A stretch of 64,000 nt of DNA from the NCBI GenBank assembly GCA_947501215.1, contig CANMUS010000002.1:434001-498000 (forward strand), written 5' to 3'. Below, one piece after another: positions 14,375 through 38,625 of this stretch. The notes under the pieces were generated by a model. That model did no database searches. It worked only from the letters and a program-made list of their open reading frames with translations, and was not told the origin of the DNA. The position numbers and the translations under genes are program-made. Numbering within the stretch: position 1 is the first letter of the stretch; each line of letters starts with the position of its first letter. Origin of the DNA: an uncultured Erythrobacter sp. (GTDB lineage Bacteria > Pseudomonadota > Alphaproteobacteria > Sphingomonadales > Sphingomonadaceae).

Positions 14375-14401
14375 GGGGAGCGGGCGACCGCTCCCCTTTT
14401 T
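14375..14401 (+). terminator. Rho-independent terminator after the MaoC-thiolase unit
   Basis: Perfect 9-bp stem GGGGAGCGG (14375-14383) and CCGCTCCCC (14388-14396) with a GCGA tetraloop, followed by five T. The reverse strand lacks a T-run next to the stem, so it works mainly rightward. Confidence 0.9.
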
Positions 14402-27003: not shown

Positions 27004-28256
27004 GGCATGATCCTGGTTTTGGAATAGTCGTGGTTATCGTCGCTCGGGGCGGCGACGCCGCTGTCCATCAGCTTGCCGATCGCTCCGGAGGACAGGCCGA
27101 GCGTGTCGGCCAGCACCTGTTCGGTGTGTTCGCCGAGATAGGGCGCACGTTGCGGCTCGCCACGCGGCTTGTCGGGGATGTTGGCGAAGCTGCGGGCGAC
27201 CGGATAGTCGAAACCGCTCGGATTGTCCGGCGTGCGCCCGAACAGCGGATTGTCGCCCACCAGCTGCGGGTCCTGCGCCGCCTCGTAAGGCGTGCGATAG
27301 CGCTCGTAGGTCGTGCCCGCCGCCGCCATGCGCTTTTCGAGCTCGGCATATTCGTGCTGGCCGGCGACGGACTGGAACAGGCCGAGCAGCCGGTCGCGGT
27401 GCTGGAAGCGGGGCGTGTCGCCATCGGCGAAGCGCACGCCGAGCTCTGCCTCGAGCGCGGCGATCTCGTCTTCCAGCCCGAAGGCTTCGACGATGCCGTG
27501 CCATTGCTTGGCGGTGAGCGCTGCGACCATGAAACGCACGCCGTCGCGGGTGATCATGTCGCTGCCGAATGCGCCCCAGATGGCGTTGCCGAGCCGCTCC
27601 CGGTCGCCGCCGCGGAACAGCATTTCGGCTATCGTGCCGCTATTGGCGAGCGTGCCGATGGCGACGTCGCCCAGCGGCACGCGGATTTCGGCGCCTTCGC
27701 CGGTAGCGTCACGGTGGCGGAGCGCCGCGAGCAGGGTGAAGGCGCAATAGGCACCCGTGAGAAAGTCCCAGGCCGGCATCAGCTGGTTGACCGGGGGCGC
27801 GGTTTCCGGGTCCCAGTCGGCGGGGCCGGTCATCAGCGGATAGCCGCTGGCGGCATTGACGGTGAAATCCATCGCCTGGCGGCCGTCATGCCAGCCCATG
27901 ATGCGGACGGAGATCATGTCCTCGCGCGCTTTTGCCATGGCGGCGTGGCTGAGGAAGCTCTTTTCCGGCAGGTTGGTGACGCATTGACCCACAGCGCTGG
28001 CGAGTTCGACGCACAGCTCCCGCCCTTCGCCGCTGCGCAAGTCCAGCGCGACCGATTTCTTCGCGCGGTTGAGGTTCTCCCACGCCAGCGAGCGGCCGTT
28101 GTCCGCCAGCATGAAGCGATCATAATCGAGCCCGCCGTCCTTGTGGTCGACGCGGATGACCTCGGCCCCGAACTGCCCGCAGTACAGGCCGACCGTCGGC
28201 GAGGCGACGAAGCTGGAGACTTCGATGACGGAGAGACCGGAGAGGAAGTCGTACAT
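27000..28256 (-). CDS. CaiB/BaiF family (class III) CoA-transferase
   Basis: Class III CoA-transferase, about 418 residues, moving CoA between acyl groups. Seen: LSGLSVIEVSSFVASPTVGL, the conserved N-terminal helix-strand, and QFGAEVIRVDHKDGGLDYDR. The LNRAKKSVALDLRSGEGREL block follows, as do RIMGWHDGRQAMDFTVNAAS and the usual Gly-rich loops. The catalytic Asp of the family is expected near residue 170 and was not checked by alignment. I choose ATG 28256; another ATG at 28280 lies inside the palindromic element and would make its hairpin code for the first eight residues. No Shine-Dalgarno is visible ahead of 28256. Confidence 0.85.
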   Translation of the reverse strand: MYDFLSGLSVIEVSSFVASPTVGLYCGQFGAEVIRVDHKDGGLDYDRFMLADNGRSLAWENLNRAKKSVALDLRSGEGRELCVELASAVGQCVTNLPEKSFLSHAAMAKAREDMISVRIMGWHDGRQAMDFTVNAASGYPLMTGPADWDPETAPPVNQLMPAWDFLTGAYCAFTLLAALRHRDATGEGAEIRVPLGDVAIGTLANSGTIAEMLFRGGDRERLGNAIWGAFGSDMITRDGVRFMVAALTAKQWHGIVEAFGLEDEIAALEAELGVRFADGDTPRFQHRDRLLGLFQSVAGQHEYAELEKRMAAAGTTYERYRTPYEAAQDPQLVGDNPLFGRTPDNPSGFDYPVARSFANIPDKPRGEPQRAPYLGEHTEQVLADTLGLSSGAIGKLMDSGVAAPSDDNHDYSKTRIMP

Positions 28257-28269
28257 TTTAGTGGCGTGC

Positions 28270-28403
28270 GCTGACGACATCCGTCGTCAGCTTGCGGCTG
28301 TTCCATCCCGCTCCCCCACCCGGCCACCCATAAGATACCGTGCCGTGGGTGGCCGGGTGGGGGAGCGGGACGGAACAGCAAGGACCGGACGGATGTCCGG
28401 TCC
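28270..28403. repeat. Triple-hairpin palindromic element, copy 1
   Basis: Three inverted repeats in a row. Left hairpin: GCTGACGAC, loop ATCC, GTCGTCAGC (28270-28291). Large hairpin: a 34-base arm 28297-28330 pairs with 28346-28379 with one mismatch and a 15-base loop. Right hairpin: GGACCGGAC, loop GGAT, GTCCGGTCC (28382-28403). The outer arms begin GCTGTTCC and end GGAACAGC. The flanks are also roughly symmetrical (T-rich then GTGCG-like), so the full element may span 28256-28423. It lies inside an operon between acyl-CoA dehydrogenase and CoA-transferase. A second copy is at 38247-38378. No U-run follows the stems, so it is not a standard terminator. Confidence 0.9.
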
Positions 28404-28441
28404 GCTCGCAAAAAAGACTCGGGAGCAGGCTCAACATCAAT

Positions 28442-29632
28442 TCACATCCCCTTCGCGAAATCCCGCATCATGTGCTTGGCGATCTGGAGCTGGAGGATCT
28501 GCGTCGTGCCCTCATAGATGCGGTAGATGCGCGCGTCGCGGAAGAAGCGCTCGGCATCGTATTCGGCGAGGTAGCCCGCGCCGCCATAAACCTGCACCAC
28601 CCGGTCGACCACCCGGCCGCACATCTCGCTGGCGAAGACCTTGAAAGCGGCGGCGTGCTTCACCGTGTTCTCGCCCCGATCGACGCGCGCGGTCACATCC
28701 GCCATCATCGCTTCGGCGGCGTAGATCTCGGTCCAGCTTTCGGAGAGCATCTGCTGGATCAGCTGGAAATTCGCGATCGGCTCGCCGAAAGCCTTGCGTT
28801 CGTTTGCATAACGCACCGCGCTGTCGAGAGCGCGCCGGGCATAACCGGTGCTCGCCGCGCCGACCGAAATGCGCCCGTTGTCGAGGCTCATCATGGCGAA
28901 GCGGAAGCCTTGGCCAGTCTCCCCGCCAAGCAGGGCGTCGCCCGGCACATGAACATCGTCAAGCATGATGTCGGCGATATGGCTGCCGGCCTGGCCCATC
29001 TTCTTGTCCGGGCTGCCGACCGACACGCCGGGCGCATCCATCGGCACGATGAAGGCGCTGACGTGAGCGTTCTTGGGCTGCGCGTCCTTTTCGGTGCGCG
29101 CCATGATCAGGCCGACATCGGCGTAGGGCGCGTTGGTGATGTAGCGTTTGGTGCCGTTGAGGATCCAGCCGTTGCCGTCGGGATCGGGTTTGGCGAAGGT
29201 CGCCATGGCCGCGCTGTCGGACCCGCTGCCGGGCTCGGTAAGGCCGAAGCAGGCGATCGCGCCCTCGGCGATCTTCGGCCACCATTCGGCTTTCTGCGCA
29301 TCCGTACCGCCGTTCTTGATCGCCGAATTGAACATGCCGACATTGATCGAGAAGATGCTGCGGAATGCCGGGGCGGCATAGGCCATGGTCTGCACGACCT
29401 TGGCATATTGCGTGACGTTGAGGCCTGCGCCGCCATAATCTTCCGGCACGGTCAGGCCGAACAGCCCCATGTCCTTCATCTCGTCGATGATTTGCGGTGG
29501 AAGCGCATCGTTTTCGATGACGTCTTTCTCTGCCGGGATCAGCCGTTCGCGCACATAGCGGTCGAGCTGTTCGAGGAACTGGTCGAAGGTGTCCGGGTCC
29601 ATGCCAGGATTGTCGGCTGCTGCTACGGTCAC
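28442..29632 (-). CDS. Acyl-CoA dehydrogenase
   Basis: FAD-dependent dehydrogenase of about 396 residues, opening the 2,3 double bond of an acyl-CoA and passing electrons to ETF. Visible: GLFGLTVPEDYGGAGLNVTQ, signature CFGLTEPGSGSDSAAM, NGTKRYITNAPYADVGLIMA, ERKAFGEPIANFQLIQ, QVYGGAGYLAEYDAERFFRD and the catalytic Glu in IYRIYEGTTQIL. The start is GTG 29632, which overlaps the upstream lipoprotein stop as GTGA and has AGGAG upstream; ATG 29602 is an alternative. It heads the enzyme part of the minus-strand acyl-CoA operon. The natural substrate is not evident. Confidence 0.93.
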   Translation of the reverse strand: MTVAAADNPGMDPDTFDQFLEQLDRYVRERLIPAEKDVIENDALPPQIIDEMKDMGLFGLTVPEDYGGAGLNVTQYAKVVQTMAYAAPAFRSIFSINVGMFNSAIKNGGTDAQKAEWWPKIAEGAIACFGLTEPGSGSDSAAMATFAKPDPDGNGWILNGTKRYITNAPYADVGLIMARTEKDAQPKNAHVSAFIVPMDAPGVSVGSPDKKMGQAGSHIADIMLDDVHVPGDALLGGETGQGFRFAMMSLDNGRISVGAASTGYARRALDSAVRYANERKAFGEPIANFQLIQQMLSESWTEIYAAEAMMADVTARVDRGENTVKHAAAFKVFASEMCGRVVDRVVQVYGGAGYLAEYDAERFFRDARIYRIYEGTTQILQLQIAKHMMRDFAKGM

Positions 29633-38188: not shown

Positions 38189-38246
38189 GGGGGAGTCCTT
38201 ATGGCGTCTATGCGGCCAAGGCTAGCGGGAGGTTGTTTGTAGGTGC

Positions 38247-38378
38247 GGAAAGCGCATCCGCGCTTTCCTTGGCTGTTCCGTCCCGCTCCCCCTCCCGACC
38301 ACCCACGGGACTTTCCTGTTTGGGTGGTCGGGAGGGGGAGCGGGACGGAACAGCAAGCCTTCGACGGATGTCGAAGGC
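38247..38378. repeat. Triple-hairpin palindromic element, copy 2
   Basis: Same architecture as 28270-28403. Left hairpin: GGAAAGCGC, loop ATCC, GCGCTTTCC (38247-38268). Large hairpin: a perfect 34-base arm 38272-38305 pairs with 38321-38354, with a 15-base loop. Right hairpin: GCCTTCGAC, loop GGAT, GTCGAAGGC (38357-38378). Compared with copy 1 the large stem differs at two positions, and both are changed on both arms so pairing is kept. The flanking TTTGTAGGTGCG and its downstream mirror look like outer ends. Located between xthA and the terminator of the lolA region. Confidence 0.92.
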
Positions 38379-38423
38379 GCACTAAACAAGGACTCGGTAC
38401 CGAAGCCATCAATGCCGATGGCT

Positions 38424-38438
38424 CCCCCCCCCCCCCCC
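38424..38438. repeat. Homopolymer run of 15 C
   Basis: Fifteen consecutive C in intergenic DNA, nine bases upstream of the A-run of a terminator. Such runs slip easily in replication and sequencing. It is not in a gene, so a coding phase switch is excluded. The exact length may be an assembly artefact. Confidence 0.8.
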
Positions 38439-38447
38439 ATCAAACAC

Positions 38448-38485
38448 AAAAAACCCCCGCGCCGGGGGCATTGGCACGGGGGTTT
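38448..38485 (-). terminator. Strong terminator, mainly leftward, possibly bidirectional
   Basis: On the minus strand CCCCCGTGCC pairs with GGCGCGGGGG (10 bp, one G-U pair) around a 9-base loop, followed by TTTTTT (38448-38453). On the plus strand the same stem is followed by TTTCTCTTTT. It would end leftward transcription from lolA or from the candidate small RNA. Confidence 0.8.
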
Positions 38486-38625
38486 CTCTTTTAGCGTTCG
38501 TCACGCTTGGAACGAGGCGAACCAGGATGAGGGGGTCAACAGGGGGGAAACCCGCCTCTCGTCGTCTCGCAATTGGAAACTAGGCCTGCAGCGATTGCCC
38601 TTCAATGAACGGTGCGACGCGAAAT
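38454..38625 (-). ncRNA. Candidate small RNA downstream of lolA
   Basis: A perfect TATAAT box lies on the minus strand at 38632-38637, just after the lolA stop. About 170 bases later comes a rho-independent terminator, and no open frame lies between. The implied RNA has a GAGGCG/CGCCTC stem enclosing a C-rich loop (TTTCCCCCCTGTTGACCCCC) and a hairpin AGCGT/ACGCT next to the terminator. C-rich loops that could pair with ribosome-binding sites are known in alphaproteobacterial small RNAs. There is no convincing -35 box, so it may instead be processed from the lolA message. Confidence 0.35.

Follow-up and report, generated by a model that had tools for sequence, protein, structure and literature searches.

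The 64-kb stretch of DNA analysed here (the window), which sits in contig C2 of a 3.04-Mb genome, holds two copies of an element that is real, dispersed and structured, and that is probably old. Our preferred reading, to which we assign a probability of about 55%, is that the element is a non-autonomous, dispersed REP-like repeat mobilised in trans by an enzyme other than a RAYT, that copies with matching outer stems are lost, and that the host has put the rpsL–rpsG copy to use. Two findings are worth pursuit: the rule that the outer stems are unlike and the copy in the str operon.

Both copies in the window are head-to-head dimers, in which a GTGC tag, a 9-bp hairpin with an ATCC loop and a 34-bp arm lead into a 15-nt loop that is followed by the mirror image (Table 1). 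The stems, loops and arms described in the original prediction are exact to the base in both copies. That prediction also placed a TTG spacer in all half-units; the spacers after the hairpin are in fact TTGCG, TTG, TT and TT in the four half-units. Its statement that the stem sequences differ entirely holds among these four, but over all loci the stems fall into recurring types, with GGTCAGGAC/GTCCTGACC seen 20 times and GCCTTCGAC/GTCGAAGGC 18 times among 223 candidates. The consensus of the aligned half-units is a T-rich stretch (TTTGTT), GCGTGC or GGGTGC, a 9-bp stem, ATCC, a 9-bp stem and TTGC. At the right end of copy 1, the flank GCTCGCAAAAAAGACTC mirrors the upstream GAGTC / T-rich / GTGC motif, and the right tag is degenerate (GCTC). 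The fold predicted for either copy has an outer stem that includes the GTGC/GCAC bases and closes a four-way junction, from which three hairpins project; as a single strand, the element is predicted to fold into such a clover. This outer stem, the non-matching outer hairpins, the wide range of the palindrome and the rpsL–rpsG copy are features beyond those noticed originally. Perfect 9-bp stems with 4-nt loops occur six times in the 64 kb, as the four hairpins of the element and two hairpins with GCGA loops. The latter, at window positions 14375 and 23054, are each followed by a T-rich stretch and resemble ordinary terminators.

Table 1. Features of the two copies of the element, in window coordinates (R1, half-unit model; C2, contig containing the window)
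Feature	Position	Strand	Evidence
GTGC tag, copy 1 left half-unit	28266..28269	+	read in sequence
Copy 1 left hairpin, 9-bp stem, GCTGACGAC-ATCC-GTCGTCAGC	28270..28291	+	stem-loop scan; model R1 hit C2:462255-462295, E 2.2e-10
Copy 1 left arm of central palindrome, starts GCTGTTCC	28297..28330	+	inverted-repeat pair I3
Copy 1 central palindrome loop, 15 nt	28331..28345	.	sequence and inverted-repeat search
Copy 1 right arm, 97% complementary to left arm	28346..28379	+	inverted-repeat pair I3
Copy 1 right hairpin, 9-bp stem, GGACCGGAC-GGAT-GTCCGGTCC (ATCC on - strand)	28382..28403	-	model R1 hit C2:462378-462418, E 6.7e-9
Copy 1 right outer tag and A-rich flank GCTCGCAAAAAAGACTC	28404..28420	-	repeat family D1 continues into the stretch
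GTGC tag, copy 2 left half-unit	38243..38246	+	read in sequence
Copy 2 left hairpin, 9-bp stem, ATCC loop	38247..38268	+	stem-loop scan; model R1 hit C2:472232-472272, E 3.8e-9
Copy 2 left arm of central palindrome	38272..38305	+	inverted-repeat pair I2
Copy 2 central palindrome loop, 15 nt	38306..38320	.	sequence and inverted-repeat search
Copy 2 right arm, 100% complementary to left arm	38321..38354	+	inverted-repeat pair I2
Copy 2 right hairpin, GGAT loop on + strand	38357..38378	-	model R1 hit C2:472353-472393, E 8.5e-10
GCAC tag, copy 2 right half-unit, pairs with left GTGC in the fold	38379..38382	-	sequence and predicted fold

The element is dispersed through its own genome (G000), in which we find 56 DNA matches. 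Scoring 150 of 2863 candidates with the half-unit model R1 gave 48 half-units at E <= 1e-4, located at 25 sites, with a gap in the scores from 32 to 25 bits after the 48th hit. Further to these 25 sites, the palindrome alone is present at C2:403140 and C3:444907. Across 25 genomes of the window's genus (Qipengyuania/Erythrobacter), the number of DNA matches per genome ranges from 0 to 48: G000, G002, G005 and G021 have 38-48 each, whereas G004, G006, G008, G010-G012, G015 and G017 have none. The dispersed family proposed from the window is borne out by the half-units in its own genome and by the copies in related genomes; a pair of copies without further relatives is not what we observed. A pattern scan of named genomes, in which pairing was not required, returned at least 111 stretches among the matches listed, many of them from unrelated bacteria, and these we take as chance matches.

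Variants in the own genome include tandem direct units (loci L012, L073 and L075) and dimers without long arms (L067 and L072). At the site of L072 two relatives carry the full palindrome, and L072 itself retains the palindrome's outermost bases, so the armless form looks like a deletion. The best pair of own-genome copies agrees at 95.5% over 111 nt and no identical pair was seen; thus, recent movement is not shown.

Beyond the genus, the range of the element depends on which part is followed. Within the order, 39 of 296 genomes carry the hairpinned form; they represent 9 of the 79 genera and belong without exception to the window's family, with 22 candidates scored per genome. The central palindrome alone is present in 93 of the 296 genomes and 27 of the 79 genera, belonging to three families, with at most 3 candidates scored per genome; per-genome counts from both surveys are therefore lower bounds. 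The palindrome is also carried by three sphingomonad plasmids. In the other genera examined, it is flanked by different hairpins or by none. Our reading is that the palindrome is an old, widely conserved core, with the ATCC hairpins as the mark of a single lineage.

Orthologous sites are occupied in some genomes and empty in others. At site 1, the position of copy 1, five of the 25 genomes of the genus are occupied (G000, G002, G005, G007 and G021); in 16 others the site is empty and its anchors lie 15-51 nt apart. One genome (G013) retains a remnant, in which one hairpin and a scar are left and the palindrome is gone; one carries another repeat, and for two (G008 and G024) comparison is impossible. 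The other repeat, in G004 (L234) at the site orthologous to window 28256-28442, is a different GC-rich inverted repeat of the CTCCCCC...GGGGGAG type within a 145-nt interval. Site 2, the position of copy 2, is occupied within 330 bp of the xth-like gene in five of the 25 genomes. The right flank at site 1 differs in G007 and G021. A recurrent right flank starting CCGAGCCGTCAGGCGAG replaces the usual right hairpin in L204, at site 1 of G007, G013 and G021, and in L288; it does not resemble a perfect hairpin and may be another module. Some of the differences between sites are deletions within an existing copy and not insertions, as seen for L274 compared with L155 and L187. No target-site duplication is legible at the compared sites, where the flanks have diverged by several to 25%.

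Copy 1 fills a 186-bp space between two minus-strand genes. From their translations, the upstream neighbour appears to be an acyl-CoA dehydrogenase-like gene and the gene on the other side CoA-transferase-like; the start of the latter coincides with the left edge of copy 1, or lies inside the element if the first ATG is used. Copy 2 adjoins an exonuclease III-like gene (xth). Beside it, a run of 15 C at window 38424-38438 is missing at the same place in G002 and is possibly variable in length. An intergenic block at window 38446-38560, containing AGCGTTCGTCACGCTTGG and AACAGGGGGGAAA, looks conserved: its exact 17-nt seed AGCGTTCGTCACGCTTG is present in 11 of 25 orthologous loci of the genus, and the block is possibly a small RNA or leader. 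Rfam has no match in the whole window. Searching seven element loci against Rfam gave sub-gathering matches only, 22 of 23 to microRNA families, and a described Rfam RNA family was rejected as the identity of the element, no match reaching the gathering score.

Which enzyme could move the element? The original prediction proposed a search for a RAYT-type or other transposase gene. No Y1_Tnp domain (PF01797, RAYT-type) was found in the own genome, in 24 of the 25 genomes of the genus or in 14 of 15 carriers, using a search that was positive for 5 of 14 controls, E. coli among them. The exception in the genus, G022, has two PF01797 hits in open frames of 142-148 aa, which we read as IS200-like, together with 2 element matches; the exception among the carriers, G273, has a match containing an in-frame stop (TGA). 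On these results, a RAYT is rejected as the mobiliser for the genomes tested. A transposase between two neighbouring copies was also considered and rejected, as the one such interval read, 1.5 kb long in G005, holds what its translation suggests is an alkaline-phosphatase-like gene. We propose that a trans-acting nuclease or transposase other than a RAYT would generate new copies by recognising the hairpins when the DNA is single-stranded, along the lines suggested for REPINs. Because PF01797 was the sole transposase family searched, a DDE enzyme is still a candidate. The spread in copy number within one genus (0-48 matches per genome), the readable sites and the order-wide core make the missing enzyme seekable by genome comparison.

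If the enzyme were of the DDE type, the element could be an ordinary MITE of an insertion sequence. The palindrome would then be a pair of 34-bp terminal inverted repeats that enclose hardly any interior, and the outer hairpins would have been captured from the target. The palindromes without ATCC hairpins in other genera and families are consistent with this idea, as are GTA-like clusters in which the hairpin beside the palindrome is also present in an unoccupied relative (L416 and L419 versus L417). However, the compared, diverged sites have no legible target-site duplication, no insertion sequence with the ends of the element was met in a search confined to PF01797, and in the window's genus the hairpin, the tag and the T-rich flank travel with the palindrome. 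We therefore give the MITE some credence but doubt it.

The window's element has no match among 50,697 phage records. IMG/VR contains 28 stretches with the wider palindrome, none of which has the window's arm variant, and a phage origin of the window's element is rejected on these grounds. In the IMG/VR contigs (L405-L432), head, portal and tail-like genes are found close to the wider palindrome, and the same spacer exists in occupied and empty versions (L417 versus L416, L419 and L427). Gene clusters near the palindrome were found in 61 loci; of six proteins sampled there, one matches nothing and the other five match phage families (tail, head, portal or connector). We take the palindrome-bearing IMG/VR contigs to be DNA of a prophage or gene-transfer-agent-like kind.

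Many of the genomes that have just one hit carry it between rpsL and rpsG. We sampled 70 rpsL–rpsG spacers irrespective of the element, covering all 64 matched genomes of the window's family and 6 from outside it. The element is present in 19, all in the family: 16 were identified by palindrome similarity, and G150 and the remnants in G141 and G151 by eye. Three other spacers of the family (G154, G124 and G089) hold different repeats and the rest are at most 99 nt long. In these three (L322, L329 and L351, respectively), we read the repeat as a CGTC-like palindrome; the spacer may be a hotspot for palindromic repeats. Adding 12 loci because they bear the element (11 found by similarity and G004 by eye) gives 31 bearers, which span ten genera. 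A Shine-Dalgarno hairpin precedes rpsG in all 31 element-bearing spacers and in none of the 51 others. This hairpin contains the Shine-Dalgarno sequence of rpsG; its form is CTCC-RAR-GGAG, with a double change to TTCC/GGAA in G049 and G169.

The copy between rpsL and rpsG is missing from four of the nine genomes of the genus in the spacer sample (G074, G148, G160 and G162). A tree of the flanking rpsL and rpsG DNA was built from 42 rows, 12 of them chosen as element carriers; no single branch separates its intended outgroup from the rest. On this tree the trait requires 8 changes, compared with a mean of 10.6 for shuffled traits; 20 of 500 shuffles are as low. Bearers lie on both sides of deep, starred forks of the tree. 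This pattern fits an old copy that was lost several times, with a few independent gains as the alternative. We suggest that the old copy would have been recruited, together with the Shine-Dalgarno hairpin, to tune the translation of ribosomal protein S7, which the hairpin may restrain. If functional, the str-operon copy would be a mobile repeat that now helps to control a core ribosomal operon.

The conserved structure in these spacers of ten genera would also be expected if the elements were host regulatory or mRNA-stability structures, acting in transcript stabilisation or translational control, with mobility incidental. Binding of CsrA to GGA loops is a conceivable mechanism. A crude codon-composition method called both neighbours at 21 own-genome sites. 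As raw counts, the neighbours are co-directional at 13 of these, convergent at 4 and divergent at 4; of the remaining sites, 2 are inside one open frame and 2 are uncallable. By the same method, L019 (C4:48.8 kb) and L069 (C2:403 kb) lie within a single open frame, and the element may at times sit in, or extend, coding sequence. A purely host-structural role is nevertheless improbable, as no more than 5-6 of 25 genomes of the genus have the element at the two window sites. On either strand, the T-run precedes the outer hairpins on their 5' side, making an intrinsic terminator unlikely. Terminator-like hairpins do exist inside the copies, with the tails TTGCTGTTCC (both copies) and CTTTCCTGTT (copy 2), but these are broken and have no clean T-run; an intrinsic terminator is disfavoured. 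In our preferred reading of a mobile REP-like repeat, copies in spacers between co-transcribed genes would persist as mRNA structure.

The pairing in the outer hairpins was analyzed in three ways, one of which, a search by arm sequence, is the sole test whose rows were not chosen for pairing. It found 45 arms at 26 own-genome loci, which amount to 25 distinct places. Of these arms, 32 have an outward hairpin in which 8 or all 9 pairs form and 3 have one with 7 pairs; the other 10, with 6 pairs or fewer, have no outward hairpin worth the name. Shuffled sequence, preserving base composition only, reaches at least 8 of 9 pairs in 0.08% of cases. The loop is ATCC in 27 of the 32 hairpins and the tag is GTGC in 29. 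The second analysis, alignment A1, contains 78 of the 223 candidate half-units. Eight of the nine pairs was the minimum for a candidate, and half-units with other loops, an imperfect tag or more than two arm mismatches, and those beyond three rows per stem pair, were left out. In A1, 94.6% of cells pair and double changes occur in 8 of the 9 stem pairs. GTGC is invariant in the 78 rows, which were selected for having it; the stem begins with G in at least 90% of them and TT follows the hairpin. The third, alignment A2, covers the orthologous rpsL–rpsG ends in 21 of the 31 element-bearing spacers, chosen by eye for the 3' hairpin with 10 omitted. Here, 94.5% of cells pair and double changes occur in 8 of 13 pairs; sliding the partner drops pairing to 37-52%.

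The pairs thus change on both sides in A1 and A2, and stems devoid of compensating changes were not what we found. The original prediction took constant shape with changing sequence to indicate selection on structure. The double changes support this idea; the reuse of stem types, the selection of rows for hairpins and the alternative of self-templated repair, which could keep palindromes paired without selection, weaken it. Templated repair, under which the changing stems would carry no functional message, agrees with 34-bp arms that are 97-100% complementary within a copy yet differ between copies, but is insufficient and on balance unlikely, because the 9-bp stem length, the ATCC-type loop (27/32) and the GTGC tag (29/32) stay constant while the stems vary and lie outside its reach.

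The two outer stems of a dimer are never alike. When all loci are pooled, the count of head-to-head pairings with the same stem at both ends, one difference being tolerated, is 0 of 55 against 6.7 expected (P 0.0008, which is optimistic because related copies were not collapsed). For the own genome alone, the count is 0 of 17 against 2.6 expected from random pairing (P 0.057), with copy L016 entered twice with two left candidates. A dimer with matching outer stems would be one near-perfect palindrome of ~130-140 bp and would be lost; the surviving dimers, having unlike stems, would have to fold as a clover. A preference for heterodimers is described in several REP families, for which protection from enzymatic removal has been suggested in the available part of that report (PMC3733652). 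A more specific and more tentative proposal is that RAYT-independent mobile clover repeats need unlike outer stems to survive, and that the oldest copy, by now a structured control element between rpsL and rpsG, gates S7 translation through the Shine-Dalgarno hairpin.

In the literature searched, no published description of the three-hairpin family is recognisable. RepRanger gives a REP count for Erythrobacter cryptus (PMC12306157), and the three-hairpin layout was not found in the accessible part of that paper. REPINs, or BIMEs, are REP doublets (Bertels and Rainey, 2011; PMC3116915), and as far as the available text of that study describes them, our element shares with them short units arranged as an inverted doublet, a spacer that is structured, a dispersed, extragenic location, compensatory changes and tandem clusters. 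A clover fold is mentioned for REPINs in the legend of its Figure S11. Our element likewise has two inverted short hairpin units around a foldable spacer. Unlike REPINs, it has no RAYT that we could find, a GTGC instead of a GTAG tag, a 34-bp palindromic spacer, and outer stems that are never alike in the pairings examined. With GTAG REPs, as outlined in the part of PMC3733652 at hand, it shares short tagged hairpins, often in dimers, and alternative complementary stem types; in contrast, GTGC occupies the place of the GTAG tag in 29 of 32 hairpins and no RAYT was found. The element resembles MITEs in being short and non-coding, in having terminal inverted repeats, and in being present or absent at orthologous sites. 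It appears to differ in that no target-site duplication was legible at the diverged sites compared and, in a transposase search limited to PF01797, no parent insertion sequence was met.

The CGTC-tagged REPs are found mostly in alphaproteobacteria, including sphingomonads, and apparently lack a dedicated transposase (Di Nocera and others, 2013; PMC3733652, available in part). They too form mainly head-to-head dimers, favour heterodimers in several families, and have 8-9-bp stems and possibly structured spacers. Our element shares the head-to-head dimers; as to a transposase, the search here covers PF01797, which was absent from the own genome and from 14 of 15 carriers. It has, however, a GTGC tag, an ATCC loop and a TT tail in place of the CGTC, TGTC or CCTC tag and the CCA tail, and its stem does not start with AT. 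The element behaves like a REP, but the tests made here place it outside the GTAG REPs, the CGTC REPs and the RAYT-linked REPINs. REP-like repeats for which no transposase is known pose an open problem, described as such for the CGTC REPs in the same partly available source (PMC3733652), and the three-hairpin family provides a well-bounded case of it.
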